Shown piece by piece: positions 1-15,883 of a DNA stretch of 64,000 nucleotides. A program made the translations under genes and the position numbers. Source of the stretch: Methyloversatilis thermotolerans. Lineage in GTDB: Bacteria > Pseudomonadota > Gammaproteobacteria > Burkholderiales > Rhodocyclaceae. Positions within the stretch are counted from its first letter, which is position 1; every line of letters starts with the position of its first letter. The notes under the pieces were generated by a model. It made no database searches, was not told the DNA's origin, and was given only the letters and a program-made list of their open reading frames with translations. Location: the NCBI RefSeq assembly GCF_000372885.1, contig NZ_KB889967.1:2042655-2106654 (forward strand), written 5' to 3'.

Positions 1-1
1 G

Positions 2-30
2 CCGCGTCCCGCCATCGGCGCGGGACGCGG
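2..30 (-). terminator. GC-rich hairpin after the EF-hand gene
   Basis: A perfect 10-bp inverted repeat (arms 2-11 and 21-30, 9-nt loop) lies 10 bases beyond the stop codon of the EF-hand gene on the minus strand. There is no T-run, so it may be a weak or factor-assisted terminator, or may serve a neighbour outside the window. Confidence 0.45.
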
Positions 31-39
31 TCACCCTGC

Positions 40-756
40 TCAGGCGCTCACCGACAGCGTGGCGGCGCTGCTGTCGTTGCTGCTTTCATTGCCGCTGTAC
101 TGTTTCAGCATTTCCAGCACGCGTGCCAGCATGCGTTCCTCACGCTGCGCGTCGTCCGGCGGTGCCGGACGGCTGGATGCGGCATCGCCGGATTCGCTGC
201 TCTGGCTTTCACGATAGGCCTGTGCCTCCTGGAAGGTGACCTTGCCGTCCTGATTGGCATCCGCCTCTTCGAAGGATTCCGCCAGTGACGACAGCTCGCT
301 GGCCATGGTCGTGTTGCCGGACGCCTCGGCCTCTTCGGCCATGGTGCTCAACTGGTCCACGGTCAGACCTTCGTCCTCGCCCTGCGCACCGCCCATGCCG
401 CCGGGCGGTGGCGGCGGCGGACGGTTGCCCATGGCCTCGCCGACGCGCGCCGCGCCGAAGCTGTCCTCGAGCTGCTCGGCCACCTTCTGCAGCAGGCTGC
501 TCAGTTCCTGTTCGGTCACCTTGCCGTCGCTGTCCGCGTCCATGGTGCTGAACAGGGATTCCGCCGAACCCGCGCTGTCCGAAGACTCGAGCGCGGACGA
601 CAGGTCACTGGCTTCGATATAGCCCTTGCCGCTGGTATCCAGCATCGCGAAAAGCTCGGAGGCCATATTCGCTGCATCGGGCTTCTGCGAACGCGAGGCA
701 GCCTGGCTGGAGTACATCGACGACGCGATGCTGCTGCCTATGCCTGAAATGCTCAT
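40..756 (-). CDS. EF-hand calcium-binding protein
   Basis: A 238-residue acidic, serine-rich protein with canonical EF-hand loops at residues 40-51 (starts DTSGKG), 73-84 (DADSDGKV) and about 169-180 (DANQDGKV). These are Dx[DNS]xDG-type calcium ligands. A proline run (110-115) followed by a GGMGG stretch separates the EF-hand pair from the rest. There is no obvious signal peptide or membrane segment. The ATG at 756 was chosen over upstream starts because a GGGGAG ribosome-binding site precedes it and the longer reading has no family resemblance. The N-terminus (MSISGIGSSIASSM) resembles the EF-hand proteins common in Xanthomonas and beta-proteobacteria. Calcium binding is a family inference; the cellular role is unknown. 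Confidence 0.85.
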   Translation of the reverse strand: MSISGIGSSIASSMYSSQAASRSQKPDAANMASELFAMLDTSGKGYIEASDLSSALESSDSAGSAESLFSTMDADSDGKVTEQELSSLLQKVAEQLEDSFGAARVGEAMGNRPPPPPPGGMGGAQGEDEGLTVDQLSTMAEEAEASGNTTMASELSSLAESFEEADANQDGKVTFQEAQAYRESQSSESGDAASSRPAPPDDAQREERMLARVLEMLKQYSGNESSNDSSAATLSVSA

Positions 757-1072
757 GAGATCACTCCCCAAGTAGGTTGGGCGTGCACGGCTGTGTACGC
801 CTTGGCTCACATGGCAAGTTATCGGCCGGCACGCCCGATCCACGCGGCCGGAAAACGTAAAAGCTCGGCAATCCACGTAAAGAATCCGGTCCGCTGCACG
901 GCCATTTCTTTACACATGCCGGCGCGGCCGGGACGCGGCCCGAACACCGCGATACGAAGCGGCAGCATTCGCCGGTGGGGGGCATGCGCGCATGCCCTGG
1001 TGCACCGGGAATTACGCTGAAGCACGAGGGTGTGCAGGCAAAAGCTGCCGCAGGCGTGCGTGTAAAGATGCG
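757..1072. other. intergenic region with GTAAA half-sites
   Basis: 316 bases between the EF-hand gene and the end of the sensor kinase gene. No coding frame is convincing. It holds three GTAAA/TTTAC half-sites (857-861, 877-881, 909-913) described separately, and presumably the EF-hand promoter. Confidence 0.5.
857..913. promoter_or_regulatory. three GTAAA half-sites, possible CpxR-like boxes
   Basis: GTAAA occurs at 857-861 and 877-881, 20 bp apart, and as TTTAC at 909-913. CpxR sites in enterobacteria are GTAAA-N5-GTAAA, a 10-bp step, so the 20-bp step puts the copies on one face but is not the classical box. The sites lie 100-160 bases upstream of the EF-hand start, next to a Cpx-like two-component system. 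The functional link is speculative. Confidence 0.2.
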
Positions 1073-2404
1073 TCACGCGTCGGTGCGCAGCAGTATGTCG
1101 ATCTGCAGTCCGCCCCCGGCAGGCAGGCAGGCGGTGATGCGCCCGCCGTGCGCCTCGACGGCACGGCGGGAAATGGACAGGCCCAGACCCGTGCCGTCAC
1201 GGGTCGAGGGCTGGATGCGCACGAAAGGATCGAATATGCGCTGCAGCGCGACAGTCGGCACACCGGGGCCATGGTCACGCACCGAAAGATGCAGCGTGTC
1301 ACCGGCACTCAGCAGCGCCACCGTCACGGTGCCCCGATCCGGAGAGAACTTGATCGCATTGCGCAGCACATTGTCGATGGCGCGAGCGATCAGCGCACGA
1401 TGTCCGGTCACGCTGCCCGTCGAGGCAGCGGGCGCAATCGAAAGCTCCAGGGCGATCAGGCGTGCGGCCGCTTCGAAACGCGCGTCGTCCACGCGCTCCC
1501 GCAGCACGTCGGCAACGCATACTGGCTGCGACACGGTGTGCTCGGCGTCGTGCTCGAGTCGGGACAGGCCAAGCAGTTCGCCCACCAGTGCATCGAGCTG
1601 CATCATGTCACGCTCGACCCGCTCGAACATTTCATCCCGCCGTGCCGGGTCCTGGCGCGCAAGACCGATGGCCGCAGCCATGCGCGCAAGAGGCGAGCGC
1701 AGTTCGTGCGACACGTCGTGCAGCAGGCTGCGCTGGGCGCCGAGCAGAGACTGTAAGCGCTCGGCCATGCGGTCGAAGCCACGACCGAGGTCGGCGATCT
1801 CGTCCCGCCGCCGCCCCATGAGCGGCGCGGTGCGCACCGACAGATCACCGCTGGCGATGGCATCGAATGCCCGGCTCAGATGCCGTGCCGGTCGCGCCAG
1901 ATAGGCGGCGAGCCCGGCGCTGGTCGCCAGTGCAGCGATCAACAGGCCGACAATTTCCATCACCGGCGGGGGGGGCATGGGCAGGCCGCGCGGCGGGGGC
2001 GGCAAGCCCTCCACCGGTGGTCCGCCATCGGCCCGAGGCGGTCGTGCATCGCGTGAGGGCGACACCACGGTCCACAGTCCATCGGCGAGCTGCACCGGAA
2101 TGCCGTCGGCGCGCTGTTCATCGGACACGGTTCGTCCCAGCAACTCATGTCCGTCCGGGGCCAGCACCAGGGGCACGGCCCCGCCCCGCGCCCGCCACCC
2201 GGCGAGCACGCGCGCCGCCGCTTCCGTCTCTCCGGACACCACGATCTGGTGGATCACCTCGGTAGCGAAGCGCGGGCTGGGCGGCGGTCGCCCCTGCCCT
2301 CCCGCCTGCCCGCGCAACAAGGAAAAGGCCAGCGCCATCAAGCCACCTGCCAGCAGGCCCGCCAGCAGGAAGGACAGGAACAGCTTCCAGAACAGCCTGC
2401 CCAC
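1073..2404 (-). CDS. sensor histidine kinase, CpxA-like
   Basis: 443-residue inner-membrane histidine kinase. The first membrane segment is at about residues 7-29. A periplasmic region with proline-rich stretches follows, then a second membrane segment (about 147-170, EIVGLLIAALATSAGLAAYL), a HAMP linker, the HisKA H-box (HDVSHELRSP, phosphoacceptor His), and the HATPase N-box (NAIKFSPD), G1 (DHGPGVP) and G2 (GTGLGLSI) motifs. All catalytic motifs are intact. It begins 4 bases after the response regulator stop at 2409, so the two form an operon. The short periplasmic domain and H-box context resemble CpxA/RstB kinases of envelope stress, but the ligand cannot be read from the sequence. An 8-G run (1968-1975) lies in the proline-rich segment. 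Confidence 0.9.
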   Translation of the reverse strand: MGRLFWKLFLSFLLAGLLAGGLMALAFSLLRGQAGGQGRPPPSPRFATEVIHQIVVSGETEAAARVLAGWRARGGAVPLVLAPDGHELLGRTVSDEQRADGIPVQLADGLWTVVSPSRDARPPRADGGPPVEGLPPPPRGLPMPPPPVMEIVGLLIAALATSAGLAAYLARPARHLSRAFDAIASGDLSVRTAPLMGRRRDEIADLGRGFDRMAERLQSLLGAQRSLLHDVSHELRSPLARMAAAIGLARQDPARRDEMFERVERDMMQLDALVGELLGLSRLEHDAEHTVSQPVCVADVLRERVDDARFEAAARLIALELSIAPAASTGSVTGHRALIARAIDNVLRNAIKFSPDRGTVTVALLSAGDTLHLSVRDHGPGVPTVALQRIFDPFVRIQPSTRDGTGLGLSISRRAVEAHGGRITACLPAGGGLQIDILLRTDA

Positions 2405-2408
2405 GCGC

Positions 2409-3107
2409 CTACTCGCGCACCAGCTGGTAACCCACGCCGCGCACGGTCTGAATCAGCGGCCGCCCCCCTGTGAGTGGCGAGAGCTTCTGCCGGATTGCGC
2501 TGATATGCACGTCGATATTGCGGTCGTAAGGTCCCATCGGCCGTCCGAGCGCCATCAAGGAAAGATCGTTCTTGGACACCACGTTTCCGGCATGACGGGC
2601 AAGCGCCTCGATCAGGCCGTACTCGGAGCTGGTCAGCGCCAGCACGGTGTGTCCGTATTCGGCCACCCTGCGTTGCGGCCACACCACGAGCGCACCCACC
2701 ATCAACGCGTCGTCGGTTGCGCCGGCCACCCTCTGTGCGGGCGACATGCGCCGCAGGATGGCCTTGAGCCGGGCCACCAGTTCGCGCGGCGTGCATGGCT
2801 TCTGCACGTAATCGTCCGCACCGAGTTCGAGCGCCAGCACGCAGTCGATGTCATCACCACGGGCCGTCAGCATCAGCACCGGCACGCCGGAAAAAGTCCG
2901 CAGGCGCCGCAGCACTTCGATACCGGACATGCCCGGCATCATCACGTCGAGCACGACGATATCCACCTGCCCGCCGGACAGTCTGGCGAGAGCGGACTCT
3001 CCGTCGCCGGCACGCTCTACGGCGAAGCCTTCGAGCTCGACATAGTCGCCCAGCATCGATGACAGCTCGTCATCGTCGTCAACCAGAAGCACGCGCGAAA
3101 TCTGCAC
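2409..3107 (-). CDS. OmpR-family response regulator, CpxR-like
   Basis: 232-residue two-component regulator. The receiver domain spans residues 1-115, with an acidic cluster LLVDDDDE, the phosphoacceptor Asp in DIVVLDVMMPG and the conserved Lys in DDYVQKPC. A winged-helix DNA-binding domain spans about 135-230 and ends in the RGVGYQLV motif. The GTG at 3107 is chosen because GGGGGA lies just upstream and the receiver domain begins immediately. An open extension to 3329 has no receiver homology. It is the partner of the kinase at 1073-2404 and is likely co-transcribed with it. Confidence 0.9.
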   Translation of the reverse strand: MQISRVLLVDDDDELSSMLGDYVELEGFAVERAGDGESALARLSGGQVDIVVLDVMMPGMSGIEVLRRLRTFSGVPVLMLTARGDDIDCVLALELGADDYVQKPCTPRELVARLKAILRRMSPAQRVAGATDDALMVGALVVWPQRRVAEYGHTVLALTSSEYGLIEALARHAGNVVSKNDLSLMALGRPMGPYDRNIDVHISAIRQKLSPLTGGRPLIQTVRGVGYQLVRE

Positions 3108-3320
3108 CTGTATCCCCCGCAGAGAAGTTCGTGTCGGGACGCGCGCGCTCGTGACCGAGAAAGCCTCGCGAGCGCATCGGAACAGCACGCGATCGGTGCG
3201 CCGGCACACGCATCTCCCGGCGGATGGTAGCGGAGTCCGTGGCGAAAGGAACAGTGACCGCCTGCGTAGCCCTCTCGCCCTCGCATTGCGACGGGCGATG
3301 GCGGAGCGCGGAGGTGCAGC

Positions 3321-3354
3321 GACGGACATCCGCCGGCCTGCGCGGATGTCCGTC
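3321..3354 (-). terminator. strong hairpin ending the nitrate/cytochrome locus
   Basis: A perfect 13-bp inverted repeat (3321-3333 and 3342-3354, 8-nt loop) begins 12 bases after the haemoglobin stop codon on the minus strand. No T-run follows. It separates the cytochrome/globin genes from the two-component system downstream. Confidence 0.6.
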
Positions 3355-3365
3355 TTGCCCCTGCA

Positions 3366-3776
3366 TCAGGCGCTTGCGGCCGCCTCCTTCATCACGCCGG
3401 CGATCACGCCATACGCGCCCGCCCATACGTCCTTCACCTCGGGCGTAAAGGCCTCCCCAAGCCCTTTCTCCAGCGTCCACAGCAGCGCCGCACCGACCGT
3501 GTCGTAGTGTGCATCCTTGACGCCATAGGCGACGTGGCGACGGCCCATGTCCTGCAGGATGGGCACCATGGTGTCGAGTTTATCCACACCGTTCACCACG
3601 GTATTGATGGCAGCCATGAGCTTGCGTCCCTGCTCCTTCATGTCGCCCTTGAACAGCGGCTTTACCGCCGGGTCCATCTCGAACAGCTTGCCGTAGAAAA
3701 GTTCGGCCGCGGTGTCCTTGATCGGGACCACCTTGGCCCACGACGATTTCAACAGTTCGATCTGCTGTGCATTCAT
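3366..3776 (-). CDS. single-domain bacterial haemoglobin
   Basis: 136-residue globin of the flavohaemoglobin/Vitreoscilla-haemoglobin type without the reductase domain. Visible landmarks are the N-terminal A-helix (LLKSSWAKV), a Phe in the CD region (VKPLFKGD), Gln at the probable E7 position (KEQGRKLM) and the proximal His in RRHVAYGV, followed by AALLWTLEKGLG. Such globins bind O2 and NO and commonly protect against nitrosative stress. It is the last gene of a minus-strand series with two cytochromes, a multihaem cytochrome and nitrate transport, which suggests handling of NO generated during nitrate or nitrite reduction. The start at 3776 lies 34 bases after the preceding cytochrome c stop. 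A reductase partner is not adjacent. Confidence 0.9.
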   Translation of the reverse strand: MNAQQIELLKSSWAKVVPIKDTAAELFYGKLFEMDPAVKPLFKGDMKEQGRKLMAAINTVVNGVDKLDTMVPILQDMGRRHVAYGVKDAHYDTVGAALLWTLEKGLGEAFTPEVKDVWAGAYGVIAGVMKEAAASA

Positions 3777-3810
3777 TTCCTTACCCCTTCCCTGTCCGGA
3801 TCGATCGCGC

Positions 3811-4179
3811 TCAGGGCGCGACCATTCTCAACATGTAATCGACCGCCGATTTCACCTCGGCATCGGTCAGCGACGTATTTCCTCCACGCGCGGGCATTTC
3901 GGTACCCGAAGGACCTTCGAATCCGTTCAGCGCGTGTTCGTGAAGCACCGCCGCGCCCTTCGCCACACGTGGCTTCCAGGCCTGCGGGTCCTTCACCTGG
4001 GGGGCATCGGACATCGAATTGGCGTGGCATTCCCTGCACGTGCCCAGCCACACCTCGCGTCCGGCCTTCAGGTGTTCGTCGTCGTACTCGGGCCAGTTGC
4101 CGGCGCCACCGGCTGCAAAGGCGCAGGTACCACCAGCGACGAACAGCAGACCGGCTGTGGATCGGATTGCCCCGTTCAT
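3811..4179 (-). CDS. small class I cytochrome c (c5-like)
   Basis: 122-residue monohaem cytochrome with a signal peptide (residues 1-23, cleavage near CAFAAGG), a CRECH haem-attachment motif at about 48-52 and a probable axial Met in GTEMPARGG, followed by a C-terminal helix (VDYMLRMVAP). The layout matches cytochrome c5/c551-type periplasmic electron carriers. It starts 7 bases after the stop of the Tll0287-like haem protein and precedes the haemoglobin, so all three are probably on one transcript. The likely role is electron shuttling to or from the multihaem cytochrome upstream; the partner is inferred. Confidence 0.85.
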   Translation of the reverse strand: MNGAIRSTAGLLFVAGGTCAFAAGGAGNWPEYDDEHLKAGREVWLGTCRECHANSMSDAPQVKDPQAWKPRVAKGAAVLHEHALNGFEGPSGTEMPARGGNTSLTDAEVKSAVDYMLRMVAP

Positions 4180-4186
4180 GACGGCG

Positions 4187-4753
4187 TTACTTCATCGGCA
4201 GGCGCAGCACCACACCGCCCATCACGTCGCCCATCTTGAAGTCGCGACGCGGCGTGTCCTTGTGATCGTTGTGGCAGCTCACACAGGCCTTGGCGATGGC
4301 CTTGTCCGGATAGACCGCGGTGAAGTACTTCTTGCCGCCCAGCGTCTCTTCCTTGTAGTAGGGTTTGCCGGTCTTGCCGACCTCGGCCAGCCCGGCCTTC
4401 TCCACGTCGGTCTTGGCCGCATTCTGTTTGTTGATCGGCCATTCGGACAGCAGCGAATAGGTGAAGGCCGCGCCCTTCTCCGCCACCATTTCCGAGCCAT
4501 AGCGGAACATCTGCGCCGGCAGCACCAGCGCCTTGTCGTCCTTCCAGTGCTCGCTGGCCTTGATCACCTTGTCCTCGTTCTGCAGGCGGTTGACGATCAG
4601 GCGGGTATAGACCGTGCGATCCGATTCCATGATGAGGTGAAGCGCATCGGCAATGTCCTTGTAGCTCCAGCTCGCGGTGGCATCCTGGGCCGACGCGGTG
4701 CTGGCGGAGAACGCGACGGCAGAGCCGAGGGCAAGTACGGGAATCACTTTCAT
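4187..4753 (-). CDS. Tll0287-like (DUF3365) haem protein
   Basis: 188-residue secreted protein. The signal peptide ends near ASAQD (residue 22) and one c-type haem motif, CVSCHNDHKD, lies near residue 155. The body (DALHLIMESDRTVYTRLIV, then YYKEETLGGKKYFTAVYPDKA) matches the PAS-like DUF3365 family typified by cyanobacterial Tll0287, some members of which are haem sensors. The ATG at 4753 has a strong AAGGAG site; an open extension upstream lacks a leader. It lies between the multihaem cytochrome and the small cytochrome c. Whether it is a redox sensor or an electron carrier cannot be decided from the sequence. Confidence 0.8.
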   Translation of the reverse strand: MKVIPVLALGSAVAFSASTASAQDATASWSYKDIADALHLIMESDRTVYTRLIVNRLQNEDKVIKASEHWKDDKALVLPAQMFRYGSEMVAEKGAAFTYSLLSEWPINKQNAAKTDVEKAGLAEVGKTGKPYYKEETLGGKKYFTAVYPDKAIAKACVSCHNDHKDTPRRDFKMGDVMGGVVLRLPMK

Positions 4754-4808
4754 GGCAGAGCTCCTTTGGCTGTTGACGGGGTGAAACGAAAGCTGTGGGC
4801 GAGCGTGC

Positions 4809-6251
4809 TCACTCGTCGCCCTCCCTGCGCGCCGCCCTGCGTTCGGCTTCGGCGCGCTCGGCATCCTTCAGCGCCCACTCGATGCTGCTTACATGCACCG
4901 AGGGCTTGCCCTTGAAATTGCTGTCCTTGAGCGCCGGATCGGCCAGCGCATCGAGCGAGAACTGCAGGCTGTGGCAGTTCATGCACACCGGCCGCAGCAT
5001 CTTTTCCGATGGCCTGAGCGTGTCGTTCTGGTTGTGCTGCACGCTCATGTGGCGCACATCGTCGGTGCGATGTTCCAGTCGCGGCATATGACAGGTGGCG
5101 CAGGTGACGCCACTGCCTGCTGGCAGTTCCCCGGCCGCTTCCCTCTTCGCCAGAGCTGCATGCGGTGAGGCCGCGAAGGCCTTGCTGTGCTTGTCCGCAT
5201 GGCAGGCCAGACAGCCTGCGGTGGCGGCCTTGACCGGATCGAAGCGGTGCGCGCCGTGGCAGGTGGCGCAGCCGATGCCCTCCTGCTGCGCATCGGACTT
5301 CATCGGTATGAGTGCCTGTGCCGGAGTCATGGCCGTCATCCCCGCGGCCAGGCGCATGCCATGCTTGCCTTCGAGGAAGGTCTTTACTTCCTGCTTGTGG
5401 CAGGTCGAACAGACGGTGTGATCCGGCTTGTCCGTCCATGCCGGCGGCTCGCCCTTGGCAGGCGGCACCATGTGGCAGCCGGAACAGTTCACGCCAGCCT
5501 GGGCATGCCCTGTTTCAAGCCAGTCGCGATGCACCTGTGCGCTGCCCTTGCCGGCCGGCGCGTCCGCCTGGGTCAGCACCTGCTTCGGGAAGCGGTCGAT
5601 CGGATAGCTTTCGTACAGCTCCTCGATCACGGTTTTCCAGTCGCGTTCAGGCACCGTGCGCGTTTCCAGCAGATCCGGCTTGCCCGCGTGCTTGGTCAGA
5701 AAGTCCTCGTACAGCGCCCGGTTGTCGTGGAAGTTGTGGCAGCCGCTGCTGGCGCAGGTATCGAATCCCAGCCCGGCATGGCTCGGACGCTCTTCTGCAA
5801 TGTCATCGTGGCAGATGGAGCAGAAGTCCTTGGGCAGGGTCACCCCCATGGCATGCGTGATATCCGGTTTGTGCTCGACGTGACAGGTGACGCAGTGCGC
5901 GGCATCCAGACGCGCGGCGCGCTCCGCATTGCGCGGATCCGTGAACTTGCTGCGGGGATGAGAATCGTCCGCCGCTTTCAGTTCCGCCGCATGGCACTGC
6001 GTACACGCGTCCTGCATCACGTCGGCGGCCGAGAACGCCTCGCTGCCATGACAGGTGGAACAGGCCATTTCGATCTGGTGATGGCCGTGCGAAGTCTGAC
6101 CGGGCAGGAAGGCGGTGCGCAGGAAGCCAGCCGGCGGCGGCGGAGCATCTTCTTTCAGCTGCATGCCCAGCCACAGGGCCCAGGTGGACAGGGCGCTCAG
6201 GCCGAACCACAGCAGCCAGAGCCATGCGTTGCGCGTGAACGTCCTTGCCAT
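4809..6251 (-). CDS. membrane-anchored multihaem cytochrome c (11 motifs)
   Basis: 480-residue protein with an N-terminal membrane anchor (about residues 8-30, WLWLLWFGLSALSTWALWL) and a periplasmic body with ten CxxCH motifs plus one CASSGCH (CX4CH), eleven potential c-haems. The first five motifs form a compact N-terminal cluster resembling NapC/cytochrome c7-like modules. The last six lie in a region resembling the C-terminal part of octahaem (HAO/ONR-like) cytochromes. No CxxCK motif, the NrfA catalytic signature, is present. The charged tail (AERRAARREGDE) is unusual. The start lies 2 bases after the flavoprotein/cytochrome b stop, implying translational linkage. It probably receives electrons from that protein. 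The substrate could be nitrite, hydroxylamine or another oxyanion; the sequence does not say. Confidence 0.85.
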   Translation of the reverse strand: MARTFTRNAWLWLLWFGLSALSTWALWLGMQLKEDAPPPPAGFLRTAFLPGQTSHGHHQIEMACSTCHGSEAFSAADVMQDACTQCHAAELKAADDSHPRSKFTDPRNAERAARLDAAHCVTCHVEHKPDITHAMGVTLPKDFCSICHDDIAEERPSHAGLGFDTCASSGCHNFHDNRALYEDFLTKHAGKPDLLETRTVPERDWKTVIEELYESYPIDRFPKQVLTQADAPAGKGSAQVHRDWLETGHAQAGVNCSGCHMVPPAKGEPPAWTDKPDHTVCSTCHKQEVKTFLEGKHGMRLAAGMTAMTPAQALIPMKSDAQQEGIGCATCHGAHRFDPVKAATAGCLACHADKHSKAFAASPHAALAKREAAGELPAGSGVTCATCHMPRLEHRTDDVRHMSVQHNQNDTLRPSEKMLRPVCMNCHSLQFSLDALADPALKDSNFKGKPSVHVSSIEWALKDAERAEAERRAARREGDE

Positions 6252-6253
6252 CG

Positions 6254-8254
6254 TCAGTACCAGTAGCTCGTGAGGATGTGGAAGCCGAGCAGCACCGGCA
6301 GCGGCCACAGCAGGAGGATGTGTGCCCAGGTCGCCAAGCGCCTCCAGGCGCGCAGCGGATGCGCGCGCTCGTGACTGCGCGCGATGCCCATGCTGGCCAG
6401 GGTGCCGGCGACCGCAGCGCCCGCCATGGACATCGACAGCCACAGGTTCAGGTTGCTGCCCATGCGCCCGCCGCTATGCACCACGAGCGCGACGAGCACG
6501 GCCACGCCGAATACGATGTGGATGGCGCGCCAGATGCTGTAGTCGCCGAGACGCCTGAGCACGGGAAGTCGCTTGCGCAGCCCGAGCACCGCGAGCACGA
6601 CGGCCATGCCCAGCAGCGTGAAGCCGCTCACCTGCTTGTAGAAGCTGTCGCGCCACAGGCGGTCCCAGTGCACGGTGAGCTGCGCCGTGTCCGGATACGG
6701 TACGTCGAGCGGCAGCCAGACGAGCAGGGCCAGAATCAGGGCGACGAAACCGCCGCCCCACAGCACGCGCGCATCGCGCTCCGGTTCGAGCGCGGCGCTG
6801 CCGCCCAGCAGTTCTGCCAGTTGCGGCTTGCAGGACCCGCACACCGTCGATGCACCGGTACAGGCGGCAAGTTCGCCGACCGACCTGCAGCCTCCGGCCA
6901 CCGCCCGATCGAGCTGACCGCGGGTGACGCCGGTGCAGTTGCACACCACGGCGACCGGCGGCCAGTTCAGAACGCTGTCCGCACCGTCGTCAGACCACAG
7001 ATGGCCATCGCGGCGGAAGCGCCACAGTTGCCAGGGCCAGATGCGGCGCTGCGCACCGACCGCCTCCTGCACGCGTCGCGCCTGCGGCCAGGGTCCGACA
7101 CCCAGCGCGCCGACGAGGCGACCGCGCCTCGTCACCAGCGTCCGCGCGCTGTTGCCATCGCCGGCGCGGTAACGCACCTGGCGACTGAAGTCGCGCGGGT
7201 CCGCCGCCACCGTTCCGACGCTCATCACCGGTATGCCGAGCACCTTGAGCCGTGTCGTAGACACACTGCCGGTGTAGCGGGCGTCACCGCCGGCGATCAC
7301 GTGCGCGGCTACCGCGGCCTGTTCGTAACCGGGCGCCACCAGTCCGTACACGATGCCGCGGTGCTCCGCGCATTCACCCACCGCGAACACGTTCGGATCG
7401 GACGTGCGCAGCGCATCGTCGACCCGGATGCCGCGCCCGACCGCGATACCGGCGCTGCGCGCAAGTTCGATATGCGGCACGATGCCGGTCGCCAGTACCA
7501 CGGTGTCGCAGTCGATGCGCTCGCCGCCGAGCAGACGTACCCCGCTCACCCGGCTGTCGCCGCAGATTTCCATTACCGGATCGTTCAGCTTCACGCGGAT
7601 GCCGGCGCGCTCGACGTGTTGGCGCAGCACCCCCGCAGCAGCCGCATCGAGCTGCCGCGACATGAGCACTTCAGCGTGATCGATCAAGGTGACGTCGGTA
7701 TTCAGCCGACGCATGGCGCGCGCGGTTTCGATGCCGAGCAGACCACCCCCCAGCACCACCGTGTGACGACTGCGCACCTGTCGCGCGAACAGGCTCTGCG
7801 CGTCACCGAAATCGCGGAAGGTAAATACGCCCGGCAACTTCATGCCCGGCGTGTCGGGCACCCGTGGACGGGAACCGGTCGCCAGGACGAGCCGGTCGTA
7901 GGACTGCTCGGCGCCGGTCGAGTCGGTCACCGTGCGCGCCGCCCTGTCGATCGCCACAATGCGCCGGCCCAGACGCAACTCGCACAGTTCCGGCGGTGGC
8001 AGCACGACCTCGGTCGACAGCGCGTCGTAGCCGATCTCTCCTGCCAGCCAGGACGACAGCTTCACGCGATTGTAGGGCGCATGCAGCTCGTCGCCGTACA
8101 CCACGACGCGACACGATGGATCGCGCGCGCACAGCTCATGCGCCATGCGCAGTCCGACCGGTCCGCAGCCGACCACCACCCGTAGCCGCGCACCGGATCG
8201 CGTACAGGAGACTACGTCCGTCGCCATGTCATCCGCAGGCATGGGGCCGTTCAT
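6254..8254 (-). CDS. NirB-like FAD/[2Fe-2S] oxidoreductase fused to diheme cytochrome b domain
   Basis: 666-residue fusion. Residues about 20-320 form an NAD(P)/FAD pyridine nucleotide-disulphide oxidoreductase domain (VVVGCGPVGLRMA, ATGSRPRVP, VVLGGGLLGIETA, NVFAVGECAEHRG) like the front half of assimilatory nitrite reductase NirB. A BFD-like [2Fe-2S] domain follows with Cys438, Cys440, Cys472 and Cys475. The siroheme nitrite-reductase domain of NirB is missing. Residues about 499-666 instead form five hydrophobic helices. Two of them carry His579/His593 and His645/His659, each pair 14 residues apart, the H-x13-H spacing of diheme b-type cytochromes. The likely role is transfer of electrons from cytoplasmic NAD(P)H across the membrane to the multihaem cytochrome encoded 2 bases downstream. 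The ATG at 8254 follows the nrtD gene by about 120 bases. Confidence 0.85.
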   Translation of the reverse strand: MNGPMPADDMATDVVSCTRSGARLRVVVGCGPVGLRMAHELCARDPSCRVVVYGDELHAPYNRVKLSSWLAGEIGYDALSTEVVLPPPELCELRLGRRIVAIDRAARTVTDSTGAEQSYDRLVLATGSRPRVPDTPGMKLPGVFTFRDFGDAQSLFARQVRSRHTVVLGGGLLGIETARAMRRLNTDVTLIDHAEVLMSRQLDAAAAGVLRQHVERAGIRVKLNDPVMEICGDSRVSGVRLLGGERIDCDTVVLATGIVPHIELARSAGIAVGRGIRVDDALRTSDPNVFAVGECAEHRGIVYGLVAPGYEQAAVAAHVIAGGDARYTGSVSTTRLKVLGIPVMSVGTVAADPRDFSRQVRYRAGDGNSARTLVTRRGRLVGALGVGPWPQARRVQEAVGAQRRIWPWQLWRFRRDGHLWSDDGADSVLNWPPVAVVCNCTGVTRGQLDRAVAGGCRSVGELAACTGASTVCGSCKPQLAELLGGSAALEPERDARVLWGGGFVALILALLVWLPLDVPYPDTAQLTVHWDRLWRDSFYKQVSGFTLLGMAVVLAVLGLRKRLPVLRRLGDYSIWRAIHIVFGVAVLVALVVHSGGRMGSNLNLWLSMSMAGAAVAGTLASMGIARSHERAHPLRAWRRLATWAHILLLWPLPVLLGFHILTSYWY

Positions 8255-8374
8255 CGCATGCCGCCCTCCGTGCTGAAGTCATCCATACGGGCCATCCAGA
8301 GCAGGCCCGCATTCCTTTGTCGGGACGAGCGCCGTCCCGCAGCGAACTGCGTAAGGCTCGCTACAGCGGACCGG

Positions 8375-9169
8375 TCAGGCCGCCTTGCGAACCTGCTTCT
8401 GGTAGAGGAACTCGAGCAGGGCTGCCCGGTATTCGACGAAATCCGTGTCGTGCGCGAGCGCCAGCCGGTCGCGCGGGCGCGCCAGCTTCACGTCGAGGAT
8501 TTCACCTATCGTGGCCGCCGGGCCATTGGTCATCATGACGATGCGGTCGGACAGCAGCACGGCTTCATCGACGTCGTGGGTCACCATCACCACGGTTGCG
8601 CCGGTCTTTTCCATGACGCCATTCAGTTCGTCCTGAAGGCTGGCGCGGGTCAGCGCATCGAGTGCGCCGAAGGGCTCGTCCATCAGCAGGATCTTCGGCT
8701 CCATCGCGAAGGCGCGGGCAATGCCCACCCGCTGCTTCATGCCGCCTGAAATCTCGTGCGGATACTTGTGCAGGGCGTGATCCATGTGGACCATTTCCAG
8801 CGCCGCCTCGGCGCGGGCACGCAGTTTCGGCTTGCCTTCCTTCTTGCCGAACACGCGTTCGACCGCGAGCAGTACGTTCTCAAGACAGGTGAGCCAGGGC
8901 AACAGCGAATGATTCTGGAATACGACTGCGCGCTCCGGCCCGGGCCCGGCGATTTCGCGACCGTCGCAGATCAGGTTGCCCGAGGTCGGCAGCGCGAGGC
9001 CGGCGATCAGGTTGAGCAGCGTCGACTTGCCGCAACCGGAATGGCCGATCAGCGTCACGAATTCGCCTTCCGATATCGACAGGTCGATGTCGCGCAGCGC
9101 AACGAACTTGCCCTTCTTGGTATCGAAGGTCATGCCGGCCTTGTCCACCTTGACCATGGTCTTGTTCAT
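8375..9169 (-). CDS. nrtD: nitrate ABC transporter ATP-binding protein
   Basis: 264-residue ABC ATPase with Walker A (GHSGCGKST), Q-loop (VVFQNHSLLPW), signature (EISGGMKQRVGIARA), Walker B (ILLMDEPFGALD) and H-loop (VMVTHDVDEA). It has no C-terminal NrtA-like domain, so it is of the single-domain NrtD type rather than NrtC. It powers uptake with NrtB and NrtA encoded just upstream. The ATG at 9169 was chosen although the frame stays open for a further 1 kb, because the ATPase fold begins here and the extension is the shadow of nrtB. The family also includes sulphonate and cyanate transporters; nitrate is inferred from the whole locus. Confidence 0.9.
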   Translation of the reverse strand: MNKTMVKVDKAGMTFDTKKGKFVALRDIDLSISEGEFVTLIGHSGCGKSTLLNLIAGLALPTSGNLICDGREIAGPGPERAVVFQNHSLLPWLTCLENVLLAVERVFGKKEGKPKLRARAEAALEMVHMDHALHKYPHEISGGMKQRVGIARAFAMEPKILLMDEPFGALDALTRASLQDELNGVMEKTGATVVMVTHDVDEAVLLSDRIVMMTNGPAATIGEILDVKLARPRDRLALAHDTDFVEYRAALLEFLYQKQVRKAA

Positions 9170-9225
9170 GAATCTCTCCCTCGCGCACCGGTGCATTGCA
9201 CCGGTCGCATCAATCCGACGTGGAA

Positions 9226-10134
9226 TCAGCTGTTGCCGTACGAGAAGCGGCGTGCCAGCAGAAGCAGTGCCTGTTCGAGCAGCAGGCCGACGATGCCGAT
9301 GACGAAGATGGCGATGATGATGTGTTCCACCTTCAGGTTGTTCCACTCGTCCCACACCCAGAAGCCGATGCCCACGCCGCCGGTCAGCATTTCCGCCGCG
9401 ACGATGACCAGCCAGGCGGTGCCGATGGACAGCCGGATGCCGGTGAGCATGTAGGGCAGCACCGAAGGAAACAGGATCCTGGTGACGATCTTCCACTCGT
9501 CGAGGTCGAGCACGCGGGCCACGTTCATGTAGTCCTGCGGCACGCGCTGCACGCCGACCGCGGTGTTGATGATCATCGGCCAGATCGAGCAGATGAAGAT
9601 GGTCCACGTCGCCGCCGGATCCGCCTGCTTGAACACCAGCAGACCGATGGGCAGCCAGGCCAGCGGGCTGACCGGGCGCAGCAACGAAATGATGGGTTCG
9701 AACATGCGGTTCATGAAGGCGAAGCGGCCGATCACGAAACCGAGCGGAATGCCCACCAGGGCGGCAAAGCCGAAACCGATGCCGACGCGCTGCAGCGACG
9801 ACAGCACGTTCCAGCCTATGCCCATGTCGTTCGGTCCGTTGTTGTAGAACGGATCTGCGAACAGCACCTTGGCCGCCTCCCACACCGCCAGCGGCCCGGG
9901 AATGCTGCCGCCTTCGGCCGCCAGCAAGGCCCACACGGCAAGCAGCAGACAGATGCCGACGAGCGGCGGGAATACGCTCTTGAACACGGTGAGCATCACC
10001 GACGACAGGACGATGCCGCCGGAACGGGATGGTTCCGCGGGAGCGGATATCTTCCTGGCCACTGCGGGCGTGGCGGGAACTGGCTTGGACGTCATGGTCA
10101 TGATCTTGTCCGAGGTAATGCTTGCTGCATTCAT
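9226..10134 (-). CDS. nrtB: nitrate ABC transporter permease
   Basis: 302-residue integral membrane permease of the NrtB/SsuC family. A cytoplasmic N-terminus is followed by about six membrane helices and the EAA-type loop for ATPase contact (NVARVLDLDEWKIVTRILFPS). The ATG at 10134 has a clear AAAGGAG ribosome-binding site. It lies between nrtA (53 bases upstream) and nrtD (56 bases downstream), as in standard nrt operons. Confidence 0.92.
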   Translation of the reverse strand: MNAASITSDKIMTMTSKPVPATPAVARKISAPAEPSRSGGIVLSSVMLTVFKSVFPPLVGICLLLAVWALLAAEGGSIPGPLAVWEAAKVLFADPFYNNGPNDMGIGWNVLSSLQRVGIGFGFAALVGIPLGFVIGRFAFMNRMFEPIISLLRPVSPLAWLPIGLLVFKQADPAATWTIFICSIWPMIINTAVGVQRVPQDYMNVARVLDLDEWKIVTRILFPSVLPYMLTGIRLSIGTAWLVIVAAEMLTGGVGIGFWVWDEWNNLKVEHIIIAIFVIGIVGLLLEQALLLLARRFSYGNS

Positions 10135-10187
10135 GTGGAGCTCCTTTCAGTGCGATCGGACGCAGCACGCGGCCGCGTCCCGGACCT

Positions 10188-11477
10188 TCACGCGACGGAA
10201 ATCCTGAAGCTTGCCGCGTACTTCTTCGGGTCCTTGCCGTCCCACACCGATCCGTCCATCAGCGTGGACGTGCGCAGTTCGCTCTTCGGCAATGCGACGC
10301 CGACCGCAGCGGCCGCCTGCTTGTACACGTCGATGCGGTTGATCGCCCGCGCGACCGCCAGGTAGTCCACGTCGCCCTTGAGCAGCCCCCAGCGGCGATG
10401 CTGGGTGAGGAACCACATGCCATCCGACAGGTAGGGGAAGTTCACCGCGCCGTCGTTGAAGAACTTCATGTAGTTCTTGTCGTCCCAGGTCTTGCCCAGA
10501 CCGTTCTCGTAGCGGCCCAGCATGCGGCCGAGAATCACGTCCATGTCGGTATTGATATAGGACTTGGCGGCCACCGTTTCGGCCGTCTTGCGGCGATTGG
10601 CCAGCGAGGCATCGATCCAGCGGCTCGCTTCCAGAACGGCGGCGGTCATGGCACGCGCGGTATTCGGATACTTCGCCACCCATTCGGCGGTGGTCCCCAG
10701 CACCTTCTCCGGATGATCGACCCAAACGTCCTGCGAGGACGCCACCGAAAAGCTCACCTTGTCGACGATGCCGCGCTGGTTCCACGGTTCACCGACGCAG
10801 AAGCCGTGCATGTTGCCGACCCGGCAGTTGGCGATCATCTGGGGCGGCGGCACCACGATGCTTTTCACATCGGTGAACGGATTGATGTCGTTTGCAGCCA
10901 GCCAGTAGTACAGCCACATGGCGTGGGTACCGGTGGGGAAGGTCTGCGCGAAGGTATAGGTACCGGCCGGGCTGGCCGCCACCACCTTCTTCAGCGACGC
11001 GCCGTCCACTGCGCCCTTCTCGCGCATCTGAGCGGAAAGAGATATGCCCTGGCCATTGTTGTTGATGGTCATCAGGTTGGCCATGTCCTTCTTCGGCCCG
11101 CCTATGCCGAGATGCACGCCGTAGATCAATCCGTACAGCACATGCGCGGCATCCAGCTCACCGTTGACCAGCTTGTCGCGCACCGCCGCCCACGAGGCTT
11201 CCTTCGACGGAATGATCTTGATGCCGTACTTCTCGTCGAACTTCTCGACTGCGGCCATCACCACGCTGGAACAATCGGTCAGAGGAATGAAGCCTATCCG
11301 CACTTCCTTCTTCTCGGGTGCGTCGGATCCCGCAGCCCAGGCGGCGCTGCGCACGCCAGGAGGTACCATGCTCATCAGCGATGCCCCCACACCCAGGGCC
11401 GCGCCCTGTCTGAGAAGGTTGCGACGCATCGCGTCAGGCTCGACGGCGTCGACAGTCGGCTTCGTATGCTCGGACAT
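10188..11477 (-). CDS. nrtA: nitrate-binding protein of ABC transporter (Tat-type leader)
   Basis: 429-residue periplasmic binding protein of the NrtA/CmpA family. The leader carries a twin-arginine pair (residues 18-19, MRRNLLRQGAALGVGASL) before a hydrophobic stretch and an AWAAG cleavage region, so Tat export is likely. The mature part begins with VRIGFIPLTDCSSVVMA, a family landmark, and includes DLKKV-like and WNQRGIVDK regions of NrtA proteins. The ATG at 11477 has GGAG upstream. The open extension to 11771 overlaps a terminator and promoter and is not coding. It is the first transport gene of the nitrate locus. Confidence 0.92.
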   Translation of the reverse strand: MSEHTKPTVDAVEPDAMRRNLLRQGAALGVGASLMSMVPPGVRSAAWAAGSDAPEKKEVRIGFIPLTDCSSVVMAAVEKFDEKYGIKIIPSKEASWAAVRDKLVNGELDAAHVLYGLIYGVHLGIGGPKKDMANLMTINNNGQGISLSAQMREKGAVDGASLKKVVAASPAGTYTFAQTFPTGTHAMWLYYWLAANDINPFTDVKSIVVPPPQMIANCRVGNMHGFCVGEPWNQRGIVDKVSFSVASSQDVWVDHPEKVLGTTAEWVAKYPNTARAMTAAVLEASRWIDASLANRRKTAETVAAKSYINTDMDVILGRMLGRYENGLGKTWDDKNYMKFFNDGAVNFPYLSDGMWFLTQHRRWGLLKGDVDYLAVARAINRIDVYKQAAAAVGVALPKSELRTSTLMDGSVWDGKDPKKYAASFRISVA

Positions 11478-11515
11478 TGTGTTCTCCGAAATTTCATGAT
11501 CGGGGTTCCAGAATG

Positions 11516-11563
11516 AAAAAAGGGTGTCATCCGCGGCCGGAAGCCGGTCGGATGGACACCCTT
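11516..11563 (-). terminator. intrinsic terminator in the nrtA leader (attenuator)
   Basis: On the minus strand, a 12-13 bp stem (11549-11561 with 11522-11533, one bulge) with an inner CCGG/CCGG stem is followed by six T residues (11521-11516). It lies about 40 bases before the nrtA ATG and downstream of the predicted sigma-54 start. A full terminator inside the leader next to a gene for an ANTAR antiterminator fits NasT-type control. Confidence 0.8.
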
Positions 11564-11627
11564 GTCCCTTGAGGGAGGCTTCCCGCCTCACTGGCATCAA
11601 CGTCGTTGTTGCGCCTTGACCAAGGCT

Positions 11628-11645
11628 TAGCACAGCCCGTGCCAA
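11628..11645 (-). promoter_or_regulatory. sigma-54 -24/-12 promoter for nrtA
   Basis: The minus strand reads TTGGCACGGGCTGTGCTA. The invariant GG and GC are separated by exactly 10 bases and TTGGCACG matches the -24 consensus fully; GTGC replaces TTGC at -12. The predicted start is near 11618, upstream of the leader terminator. Confidence 0.75.
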
Positions 11646-11674
11646 GCGCACCCACACGCACTCAAGTCCTTTTT

Positions 11675-11687
11675 CATCAATGACTTG
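11675..11687. promoter_or_regulatory. IHF-like site between activator site and promoter
   Basis: The plus strand reads CATCAATGACTTG, matching WATCAA-N4-TTR at all positions except the first. Its place between the NtrC-like site and the -24/-12 element is the usual one for DNA bending at sigma-54 promoters. Confidence 0.4.
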
Positions 11688-11732
11688 ACGAGATGGTTCA
11701 CTGAAAGAACGGACCGGTGACCGGCCACGTCC

Positions 11733-11747
11733 GCACTCGCGCGGTGC
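11733..11747. promoter_or_regulatory. NtrC-like binding site
   Basis: GCAC-N7-GTGC (GCACTCGCGCGGTGC), the core of the NtrC consensus, centred about 120 bases upstream of the predicted sigma-54 start. Only one such site was found; enhancers often have two. Confidence 0.5.
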
Positions 11748-11878
11748 GAGTCGGGCCGTGCAGCGCACCAAGTCGACACAACAATATCGGGGAGGGCCCG
11801 GCGCAGCATGCGCGCAAATGCGTCTTCATGAGGAGGCCGGCCCGGCCCGGCACCGCGGCCGGATGCGCGACGCGATGC

Positions 11879-12460
11879 TCAGCCGAGCAGGCGGGCGGTG
11901 GCGATGAAATCCTCGGACACCGCCGCAATCGTCTTGCCGCGCTCCATCGCCAGCTTGCGCAGTGTGTGATAGGCCGCGTCCTCGTCAATGCCGCGCAATT
12001 TCATCAGGATGCCCTTGGCACGGTCGATCACGATGCGGTCGTTGAGCTTCTGACGCGCTTCGTCACGCGCCTTGCGCAGCTCCTGGTGCTCCTCGAAGCG
12101 GGCAATCGCGACGTCGATCACCGGCTTGAGTCGCTTGGCTTCCAGCCCGTCCACGACATAGGCCGACACGCCCGCCTTCATCGCGCGTCGTATCGTCTTG
12201 GTGTCGGCGTCATTGGAAAAGACCACGACCGGTCGCGGCATGGTGCGATCCATGACCGCCATGTTCTCCAGCGTGTCGCGCGACGGCGAATCGGTCTGGA
12301 TCAGGATGACATCCGGCTTGAGCTGCTCGACCTTGGTCTGCAGATCGTAGGCGCTGGACAGCACAGCCGCTACCTGATAGCCGGCACAGGCCAGACCGGC
12401 GCACATTTCTGCGGCACGTTTGCGCGATTCATCGACAACAATGACGGTCAGTACGGACAT
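11879..12460 (-). CDS. nasT: NasT-like ANTAR response regulator
   Basis: 193-residue regulator. The N-terminal receiver-like domain (MSVLTVIVVDES, DVILIQTDSPS) lacks the usual DxMMPG context. The C-terminal ANTAR RNA-binding domain (residues about 130-190, DRAKGILMKLRGIDEDAAYHTLRKLAM) is intact. NasT proteins bind leader RNA and prevent termination before nitrate-assimilation genes. It sits directly upstream of the nrtA leader, which contains a terminator. The ATG at 12460 is chosen over a TTG at 12499 because the receiver begins at once. The usual NasS nitrate sensor is not encoded beside it. Confidence 0.85.
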   Translation of the reverse strand: MSVLTVIVVDESRKRAAEMCAGLACAGYQVAAVLSSAYDLQTKVEQLKPDVILIQTDSPSRDTLENMAVMDRTMPRPVVVFSNDADTKTIRRAMKAGVSAYVVDGLEAKRLKPVIDVAIARFEEHQELRKARDEARQKLNDRIVIDRAKGILMKLRGIDEDAAYHTLRKLAMERGKTIAAVSEDFIATARLLG

Positions 12461-12536
12461 GAAGAGTGGGCAGGACAATTCCGGAGGCTCGTCACGCAAT
12501 CACCGTGCCATGACGCGCCAAGCGGCGGCGGCGGCC

Positions 12537-13649
12537 CTATCCGTCCAGATCTATGGTCATGAGCGACACGTCGTCGTGTGCGCATGCACCTTGCAGATGC
12601 ATGGAAAGAGCTTCGCGCACCGCATCGTGGCGTTGCGCACGGGATGTGCTGCCGAGCACCTGCTCCAGGCATGACCGCCCGAAGCACAGTCCATTCCTGG
12701 AGCGGGCCTCGAGCAGACCATCCGAACAGAGCACGAGCTGGGCGCCCGGTGGCCAGACGACGCGCGTCACCGGCAGCGATTGATGTCCCTCGTCAAGAAT
12801 GCCCAGCGGCAGGTTGGTGGAGGTAAAGCGCATCAGGACGCCGCCATCCTCATCGAGAAGCAGCGCCTCGGGCGTGCCACCCACCCATATCTCGCCTTCC
12901 CCCCTGCTCACGCGCAACAGCGTGGCGGCAACAAAACGCCCGACCGGAAGCGTAGACAGCAGATGCCGGTTCATTTCCGCAGCCATCAGCCCCAGCGGCA
13001 AGCCCTTGCGCGCCACACCGAAGAACACCTGCAGCACCGGCAGTGCGCTGATGGCGGCCGCCAGCCCATGGCCCGTGGCGTCGGCAAGCAGCGCATACAG
13101 CGCCCCATCGGGCGAGCGGGCAACCGCCACCACGTCGCCGGACAGGTTTGCCGTCGGAATGACCGTGTGGCGCACCCGCGCGTCCTCGTCCGCCTTGCCC
13201 TGCACATGCCGGTCGATCACGCGTCTGGCCAGTTCGAGCTCGGCCTCGTGTTCGGCGCGGAACTGGGACAGCCTCGCGTGCATGGACAACTGCCGTTCAC
13301 AGTTGCGCAGCTTCGCCGCCAGGATGGAGAAATTGATCGGCTTGGTGAGGTAATCGTCCGCCCCCGCCTCCAGCCCGGCAATCATGTCCCGGTCATCGCC
13401 ACGGGCGGACAGCAGGAGTATGGGCAGCAAGGTGTCGGCGGTGAGCTGCCTCAAGGCGCGTGTCGCTTCCAGCCCGTCCATGCCGGGCATCACGACATCC
13501 ATCAGCACGACATCCGGTCGCTCGGTCAGGAACACCTTCAGCGCCTCTGCGCCATCGGAGGCTTCCAGACTGTGATGACCGAGCCGACGGACCAGGGCAC
13601 TCACGGTGGCCCGACCGACCAGCGTGTCGTCGACCACCAGCACCGTCAT
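12537..13649 (-). CDS. response regulator with PP2C/SpoIIE phosphatase domain
   Basis: About 370 residues. A receiver domain (MTVLVVDDTLVGRA, DVVLMDVVMPGMDG, DDYLTKPI) and a coiled linker (about 125-165) are followed by a SpoIIE-type serine phosphatase domain (NLSGDVVAVARS, LLADATGHGLAAA, LVLCSDGLLEAR, AHDDVSLMTID) with its metal-binding Asp residues. Such proteins dephosphorylate anti-sigma-factor antagonists in partner-switch pathways. The ATG at 13649 has GAGAGG upstream; an ATG at 13709 is possible but lacks a site. The gene upstream encodes the matching kinase-type domain, so the pair probably forms one switch. No STAS antagonist gene is adjacent. Confidence 0.85.
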   Translation of the reverse strand: MTVLVVDDTLVGRATVSALVRRLGHHSLEASDGAEALKVFLTERPDVVLMDVVMPGMDGLEATRALRQLTADTLLPILLLSARGDDRDMIAGLEAGADDYLTKPINFSILAAKLRNCERQLSMHARLSQFRAEHEAELELARRVIDRHVQGKADEDARVRHTVIPTANLSGDVVAVARSPDGALYALLADATGHGLAAAISALPVLQVFFGVARKGLPLGLMAAEMNRHLLSTLPVGRFVAATLLRVSRGEGEIWVGGTPEALLLDEDGGVLMRFTSTNLPLGILDEGHQSLPVTRVVWPPGAQLVLCSDGLLEARSRNGLCFGRSCLEQVLGSTSRAQRHDAVREALSMHLQGACAHDDVSLMTIDLDG

Positions 13650-13712
13650 GGCTGCGCCCTCTCGCGTCAGCGCCGGGTTCGTCGTCCCGCGTCCGTCGGA
13701 TGGCATCATGGC

Positions 13713-14624: not shown

Positions 14625-14746
14625 GAAGGGGGTCACCTCGCGCGGGGCTGCCTGAATGTGGAAAAACCGGTGGCCGGCAGAGCTTGTCCTGCTCTGGCTC
14701 AGCTAACGGCGCGGCAGCCACCCGGCTTGAGCGCGCCAGTTCCGGC

Positions 14747-15139: not shown

Positions 15140-15207
15140 GCGCCTGCATCCGCGCGTGCCATCGAAGATAGAATCCCGGGCGTATCCCATCAGCAGGATC
15201 GCCCGCC

Positions 15208-15867: not shown

Positions 15868-15883
15868 CTTTGGCCGCGCAGCG

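Follow-up and report, generated by a model that had tools for sequence, protein, structure and literature searches.

A flavoprotein-cytochrome b fusion and an undecahaem cytochrome form a candidate electron-export module associated with nitrate assimilation in Methyloversatilis thermotolerans and other bacteria

The usual scheme of nitrate assimilation consists of uptake, NasA, and NirBD and places reduction in the cytosol. Several described systems come close to parts of the locus reported here. In Bradyrhizobium, a globin and a flavoprotein encoded in an operon for nitrate assimilation act against nitric oxide (NO) (PMC4724949); stand-alone heme-Cache proteins are described as having redox properties (PMC12889525); a DUF3365 protein is listed in PMC9230427; and undecahaem proteins are described for electrode and iron oxidation (PMC5371394 and PMC10734462). 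We analysed a 64,000-nucleotide stretch of Methyloversatilis thermotolerans (the window; assembly GCF_000372885.1, contig NZ_KB889967.1, positions 2,042,655 to 2,106,654 of the forward strand). Its minus strand carries, in this order, genes for a NasT-like ANTAR regulator, NrtA-type, NrtB, and NrtD proteins, a flavoprotein-cytochrome b fusion, an undecahaem cytochrome (MHC), a Tll0287-like protein, a monohaem cytochrome c, and a globin. A preliminary description made from the sequence of the window had noted nitrate uptake in the locus, and the nrtA-, nrtB-, and nrtD-like genes and the ANTAR regulator gene do lie upstream on the same strand. We give an even chance to the reading as a whole, namely that the locus is a conserved electron-export module, working via a haem hub, that accompanies nitrate assimilation, perhaps for protection against nitrogen oxides.

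The fusion is a single open reading frame (ORF) of 666 amino acids (aa) with a Pyr_redox_2 domain (residues 26 to 316), a Rubredoxin_C domain (residues 334 to 399), and a Fer2_BFD domain (residues 436 to 483). Its best NCBIfam match was NirB (TIGR02374), over profile positions 2 to 467 of 794 and with 379.4 bits against a full-length cut-off of 578.35. The domain scan did not find the sirohaem/[4Fe-4S] half (PF01077) in the fusion, and the PF01077 matches of the same genome map elsewhere. The preliminary description had a NirB-type FAD/[2Fe-2S] part joined to a membrane domain with His579/His593 and His645/His659, and we confirmed this architecture. The two His residues of each pair are 14 residues apart (H-x13-H) in one predicted helix, and the four His and the four BFD Cys residues were invariant in all 71 aligned rows, the window's own included. 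The predicted structure (mean pLDDT, 90.5) has five membrane helices. A His pair on each of two helices is what we take to be the pattern of the ferric reductase/b561 family; the fusion shows this tetrad, and from sequence and model it is predicted to bind b-haems. No Pfam model scored over its cut-off for the membrane domain in the eight tails scanned, PF01292 and PF01794 included, and the nearest models below cut-off were cytochrome b561 (27.8 versus 30.1 bits, in one homologue), DUF4405, Ferric_reduct, and Ni_hydr_CYTB. For the Pyr_redox_2 part, the Foldseek matches listed were ferredoxin, CoA-disulphide, and persulphide reductases and NADH oxidases. Residue 192, in the NAD site, was Glu or Asp in 51 of the 71 rows, Gln in 16, and His in 4, so that the composition leans toward a preference for NADH.

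The membrane-anchored 11-motif cytochrome that had been placed two bases downstream is likewise present: two bases separate the stop codon of the fusion (6256-6254) from the ATG of MHC (6251-6249), and the MHC model has an N-terminal helix at residues 7 to 31 (pLDDT, 83.6). Ten CxxCH motifs and one CX4CH motif, without CxxCK, formed the exact set in all 71 complete MHC homologues from 80 loci (9 of the 80 gave no complete MHC ORF under the start rule used), and this identity excludes a chance origin of the set. The N-terminal half is cytochrome c3-like, with all 69 members scanned matching PF14537 at an E value of 0.01. Residues 235 to 435 aligned to a profile of 11 HAO-type octahaem proteins with an hhalign probability of 99.4, an E value of 7.7e-22, and a score of 171.0; the profile was built on 11 of 12 HAO-type loci, with the incomplete L204 left out. 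Controls were needed because CxxCH letters alone can raise such scores and off-register alignments reached E 6e-13. Twenty shuffles of the non-motif columns gave a maximum score of 72.5, and masking the haem-motif letters left the register unchanged (E 3.3e-5; probability, 72). The six C-terminal haems of MHC align with HAO motifs 2, 3, 5, 6, 7, and 8, and His249, His335, His355, and His364 fall on HAO His residues. HAO motif 4, which we take to be the catalytic P460 haem, faces a gap in MHC, and in all 72 rows the segment between the haems on either side is free of Cys. A conserved stretch at residues 297 to 317 (H297-G-M-R300, M308-x-P310, and M317) occupies this place and is a possible binding site. 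Alignments A3 and A4, with redundant rows left out, hold 69 of 72 and 64 of 71 rows, respectively.

All 69 members matched the DmsE decahaem model TIGR03508 at E 0.01 (window MHC, 48.8 bits against a cut-off of 192.2), none matched the HAO model PF13447 at that threshold, and 36 matched PF02335 (NrfA/ONR; best E value, 3.4e-7), for which the window protein scored 17.7 bits against a gathering cut-off of 24.1. On this score and the CxxCK count (0 of 71 homologues), membership of MHC in NrfA/ONR was rejected. Foldseek on the MHC model returned nothing at E 0.001; the top match was HAO 6t5e at a weak E value of 7.7e-3, followed by NrfA structures at E values of at least 1. A tblastn search with MHC against a plasmid collection gave no match. 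Eleven non-motif His residues (positions 57, 98, 127, 158, 175, 249, 297, 335, 355, 364, and 406) were conserved at 99 to 100%, and no other reached 90%. This number is exactly what capping 11 haems would take, and the count argues for MHC being an electron hub. Since no haem motif stands at the HAO catalytic place (72 rows) and the conserved His residues would suffice for both haem sides, MHC most likely serves to conduct and store electrons rather than to catalyse a reaction. The periplasmic multihaem reductase of the preliminary description was thus not borne out.

The fusion and the cytochrome are one unit. In an even sample of the class (n = 321 genomes), the cytochrome was present in 26 genomes and the membrane domain in 25, all within the 26. 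The fusion was never found alone, which is the co-occurrence that the preliminary description had proposed to look for. The exception, G728, has a divergent (40%) cytochrome at C3:336254-337528 with no fusion partner detected, possibly a variant with a different electron donor. Another genome of this sample, G624 (1.7 Mb), has the cytochrome and the membrane domain at two places (C23 and C31). A cytochrome scan at one genome per species gave 401 relatives, the best 80 of which, leaning to close relatives, were used for neighbourhood counts. By their titles, the 80 are mainly beta-, gamma-, and alphaproteobacteria, with metagenome-assembled genomes (MAGs) of Nitrospirota (2), Poribacteria (3), Planctomycetes (1), and Limisphaerales (1). 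At a loose cut-off, the 80 loci contained MHC (80), the cytochrome b domain (79), the Tll0287-like protein (78), the flavin half (77), the globin (56), NrtA (35), the small cytochrome c (35), NrtD (30), NrtB (29), and NasT (27); some of the contigs end early, and recurrent neighbour clusters were annotated in part. The module is patchy among close relatives, since the full-length fusion occurred in 2 of 13 genomes of the window's genus and the cytochrome in 9 of 395 genomes of the family sample.

We compared the gene content of the module loci with that of 35 control loci from the same genome set, each around a weakly NirB-like sirohaem gene that was taken as sulphite-reductase-like and not individually classified. 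Any of nasT, nrtA, nrtB, nrtD, nirB, nasA, or a NarK-type gene counted as a nitrate gene, at uniform stricter cut-offs and with a 35% identity floor for module and control loci alike; without the floor, 16 of the 35 controls count through the bait's own NirB match (<28% identity). A nitrate gene was found at 39 of 80 module loci versus 0 of 35 control loci and, among loci of at least 17 kb, at 25 of 49 versus 0 of 32 (p 1e-7). The association with nitrate genes that the preliminary description had expected therefore stands, but not in the form of a fixed nrtABD set. In the same-genus relative L047 (6850-10188), nasT and nrtA lie directly before the fusion, and the 19 kb of sequence fetched for this locus yielded no nrtB or nrtD. 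Obligatory nrtABD linkage was rejected on this stretch and on the 24 of 49 longer loci that hold no nitrate gene. Because L047 keeps nasT and nrtA without the two other genes in its fetched stretch, the NrtA-like protein may be a NasS-type sensor. In the family sample, a NasA-type gene was present in 9 of 9 module genomes versus 236 of 386 others (p 0.013; E 1e-180); the class sample gave 22 of 26 versus 117 of 295 (p 8e-6; E 1e-145). These tests ignore phylogeny, use different E cut-offs for the two samples, and rely on a query that may catch formate dehydrogenases at its weak end, that family being its best NCBIfam match, below cut-off.

The preliminary description also had the module replacing NirBD and proposed to test whether nirBD is absent from the genomes concerned; replacement was not supported. 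The genome of the window has a NirB gene (943.7 bits; cut-off, 578) clustered with genes for a NirD-type Rieske protein, an MFS transporter, and a NasA-type protein about 730 kb away, so that a normal nirBD elsewhere in the genome, whose sufficiency for nitrite assimilation the preliminary description had named as evidence against itself, is present at the gene level. This cluster (G000:C1, ~1.316-1.325 Mb; L004:5958-14791) also holds a PP2C-phosphatase/protein-kinase fusion. NirB and NasA were searched for in 50 of the 80 module genomes, chosen mainly for long contigs and isolates. At an E value of at most 1e-60, the sirohaem half of a NirB-type protein was detected in 41 of the 50. Among the nine others, three had NirA over the curated cut-off, two had an unclassified sirohaem ORF close to NasA, and four, all MAG records, had a scanned sirohaem ORF below the NirA cut-offs, the scan for NirA covering part of the sirohaem ORFs in these genomes. 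NirB was inside the fetched flanks of 10 of the 80 module loci.

The genes that follow MHC recur as well. A Tll0287-like protein was encoded at 78 of 80 module loci, and that of the window scored 70.0 bits for PF11845 against a cut-off of 24.1. All 78 homologues have one CxxCH motif and only two Cys residues after residue 28, so they do not share the Cys/His ligation reported for Tll0287. A single-domain globin was found at 56 of 80 loci, and at 10 loci without it, a truncated globin (PF01152) followed the Tll0287-like gene by a few hundred bases to ~1 kb. One or the other globin type was present at 66 of 80 module loci versus 0 of 35 control loci, and no locus had both. In 7 of the 10 truncated-globin loci (L110, L115, L116, L125, L130, L133, and L134; the others are L071, L087, and L103), the next gene encodes a [2Fe-2S]/FAD/NAD reductase. 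Two unrelated-looking globins at one place suggest that function, most simply cytosolic O2 or NO chemistry, outweighs ancestry. A gene for an Alginate_exp outer-membrane beta-barrel lay near the module at 10 of 80 loci versus 0 of 35 controls, the window itself standing outside these counts; most of the 10 loci (L073, L078, L086, L094, L097, L102, L109, L120, L127, and L128) also have nrt genes.

We propose the following path. On the cytosolic side, in the NirB-type half, NAD(P)H would reduce FAD and then the [2Fe-2S] cluster, as the domains imply; electrons would pass the membrane via two b-haems, a step suggested by the invariant His tetrad and the model; and, judging from the strict gene pairing, the anchored undecahaem cytochrome would receive them. 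The path from NAD(P)H to the periplasm claimed in the preliminary description thus finds support from architecture, at the level of sequence and model. In the last and weakest step, the heme-Cache protein and cytochrome c, both in the periplasm, would accept electrons from MHC. The purpose would be disposal of reactive nitrogen oxides (NO and leaked nitrite) arising from nitrate assimilation, a task that the globin would take on in the cytosol, and the module would supplement NasA and NirBD rather than replace them. Protection against nitrogen oxides is favoured as the purpose because the NO-defence system of Bradyrhizobium resembles the module in its globin and its nitrate context, and it gains weight from the 10 loci where a second globin type replaces the first. 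We regard the path from NAD(P)H through the fusion to MHC, with an accessory status beside NasA and NirBD, as probable, and the nitrogen oxide role as a tentative proposal that falls a little short of an even chance. More tentative still is the picture in full: a previously undescribed membrane branch of nitrate assimilation, spread over many Proteobacteria and a few MAGs of Nitrospirota, Planctomycetes, Verrucomicrobia, and Poribacteria. In this branch, an NAD(P)H:multihaem-cytochrome oxidoreductase and either of two interchangeable globins would together defuse nitrogen oxides by exporting electrons from the cytosol, and the haem hub of the oxidoreductase would have arisen within the HAO group when the catalytic haem was lost.

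Several observations weigh against these proposals. The last step is to us somewhat more doubtful than not. The nitrogen oxide role would follow by analogy from globins, nitrate context, and precedent, and a stand-alone heme-Cache protein is reported to bind NO weakly (PMC12889525). Neither globin was found at 14 of 80 loci; some of these are on short contigs, but 7 extend more than 9 kb beyond the Tll0287-like gene. No nitrate gene was in the fetched stretch of the 24 longer loci mentioned above, and 4 of 26 module genomes had no strong NasA-type match. The bis-His ligation suggested for MHC is a His count, the b-haem domain might reduce quinone instead, and the Alginate_exp beta-barrel at 10 loci would also fit electron export further outward. 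The 80-locus sample is one that leans to close relatives.

Other explanations were weighed against the same evidence. MHC could itself reduce nitrite, NO, or hydroxylamine in the periplasm alongside NirBD, its catalytic haem lying away from the fourth HAO position, for instance in the c3-like half or at a labile bis-His haem. Its kinship with the HAO/NrfA/ONR group speaks for this, the solved structures matched in that group being those of nitrite reductases and an HAO, as does the nitrate gene context, and one of the 11 extra His residues could be an active-site residue and not a ligand. We nevertheless consider it unlikely, given the lack of CxxCK in all 71 homologues, the Cys-free gap at the catalytic haem in all 72 rows, distal His residues kept at the four places read in the HAO-type half, and the score of the window protein below the PF02335 cut-off. 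Quite unlikely, in our view, is an alternative NADH dehydrogenase or redox-balance path to cytochrome c or the quinone pool during growth with nitrate as the nitrogen source, or a relay for redox sensing that passes through the heme-Cache protein. Some b561-type cytochromes are quinone-linked, and the membrane domain resembles that type below threshold; a small cytochrome c at 35 of 80 loci and the redox character described for stand-alone heme-Cache proteins (PMC12889525) would also fit. Such a path, however, leaves the globin of either type (66 of 80 loci) and the nitrate genes unexplained.

The weak ferric-reductase-type match of the membrane domain, the sub-cut-off DmsE-type similarity (TIGR03508), and the beta-barrel gene at 10 of 80 module loci and no control locus could be read as signs of ferric, quinone, or extracellular acceptor reduction that merely shares its regulation with nitrate assimilation. 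The beta-barrel gene was not in the fetched stretch of the other 70 loci, no search for outer-membrane cytochromes having been made, and we hold this reading to be very improbable. Hardly any credence is left for replacement of NirBD by the module as the nitrite reductase of nitrate assimilation, an idea suggested by the NirB-type front half and the upstream nitrate transport genes and by 6 of 50 genomes, all MAG records, in which neither NirB (at E 1e-60) nor, among the ORFs scanned, NirA (over cut-off) was detected. Two of these six have the unclassified sirohaem ORF close to NasA, the window's genome has NirB, NirD-type, and NasA-type genes, NirB or NirA was found in 41 and 3 more of the 50 genomes, NirB lies at 10 of 80 module loci, and the catalytic haem motif is absent from MHC.

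The features of the locus are listed in Table 1. An Rfam search of window positions 1 to 16000 gave no match at E values up to 1, and a promoter and terminator scan gave no excess over shuffled sequence. Two response-regulator-type proteins are encoded upstream of nasT (window 12537-14636), and L047 keeps both beside nasT at 66 to 72% identity. A histidine kinase and a response regulator downstream of the globin (window 1073-3125) adjoin the module in L047 too (52% and 77%); elsewhere in the 80 loci, they have just distant matches in a few. Further on, at 40-876 on the minus strand, there is an ORF with EF-hand domains (PF13499).

Table 1. Positions of the module, its domains, and neighbouring genes in the window
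Feature	Position	Strand	Basis
Flavo-iron-sulphur cytochrome b fusion (FlavCytb, 666 aa): NirB-type NAD(P)H diaphorase and predicted dihaem membrane domain	6254..8254	-	Domain scans; AlphaFold pLDDT 90.5
Pyr_redox_2 FAD/NAD(P)H domain of fusion, residues 26-316	7307..8179	-	E 4.1e-58
BFD-like [2Fe-2S] domain of fusion, residues 436-483 (Cys438, 440, 472, 475)	6806..6949	-	E 3e-11
Membrane domain of fusion, residues 490-666 (helices 495-513, 537-559, 572-594, 602-625, 633-665)	6257..6787	-	Model; His579/593, His645/659
Membrane-anchored undecahaem cytochrome c (MHC, 480 aa; 10 CxxCH and 1 CX4CH)	4809..6251	-	Motif count; predicted helix
Cytochrome c3-like N-terminal part of MHC, residues 57-149	5805..6083	-	PF14537 E 2e-14
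HAO-type C-terminal part of MHC, residues 235-435	4947..5549	-	hhalign probability 99.4, E 7.7e-22
Tll0287-like (heme-Cache) protein, one CxxCH, signal-peptide-like N terminus by eye	4187..4753	-	PF11845 E 3.7e-19
Monohaem cytochrome c, signal-peptide-like N terminus by eye	3811..4179	-	PF13442
Single-domain globin, no export signal seen	3366..3776	-	PF00042 E 4.2e-17
NrtD-type nitrate ABC transporter ATPase	8375..9169	-	TIGR01184 328.5 bits, cut-off 291.8
NrtB-type permease	9226..10134	-	TIGR01183 248.1 bits, cut-off 209
NrtA-type substrate-binding protein; may be a NasS-like sensor	10188..11477	-	PF13379 E 3.7e-96
NasT-like ANTAR response regulator	11879..12460	-	PF03861 E 2.6e-18 and PF00072

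If the proposed scheme is true, a membrane electron-export branch would explain a recurrent gene block made of separately named families (NirB-type flavoprotein, cytochrome c3, DUF3365/Tll0287, and globin), and it would offer a clear genetic test of how cells handle nitrogen oxides during assimilation. An HAO-type scaffold without the catalytic haem would show an enzyme fold reused as a wire. A full-text literature search (titles and abstract openings), with subscription journals mostly outside its reach, found no description of the fusion-cytochrome pair, and the portion of PMC4013037 consulted made no mention of the fusion.

Among known systems, NirBD (TIGR02374) shares with the fusion the FAD, rubredoxin-reductase C-terminal, and BFD [2Fe-2S] domains. 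Unlike NirB, the fusion is without the sirohaem/[4Fe-4S] half, ends in a predicted dihaem membrane domain, and coexists with a true NirB in the genome. The ferric-reductase/NADPH-oxidase and cytochrome b561 families have in common with it two helices that each carry a His pair and a flavin donor served by pyridine nucleotide, but the Pfam scores of the fusion are below cut-off, its diaphorase is N-terminal and NirB-type, and its partner is a multihaem protein. The C-terminal half of MHC is in register with the HAO-type octahaem proteins (PF13447) and NrfA/ONR over the six HAO motifs and four distal His residues given above, whereas MHC has no fourth motif and has an extra five-haem c3-like N-terminal half, a membrane anchor, and 11 haems. 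The Tll0287/DUF3365 heme-Cache proteins (PMC12889525) agree with the module protein in PF11845 (over cut-off), a single CxxCH, and a stand-alone form, but the Cys/His ligation reported in that paper is missing from the 78 module homologues. The Bjgb-Flp system of Bradyrhizobium (PMC4724949) likewise has a single-domain globin together with an NAD(P)H flavoprotein, in a setting where NasT controls nitrate assimilation; for the module, NasT control is suggested by gene neighbourhood. Flp is a proposed donor to NasC and Bjgb (PMC4724949), whereas the flavoprotein of the module continues into a membrane cytochrome domain and has a multihaem protein as its partner. The parts of the module are thus of known kinds, and the combination and the HAO-type hub without a catalytic haem appear to be new.

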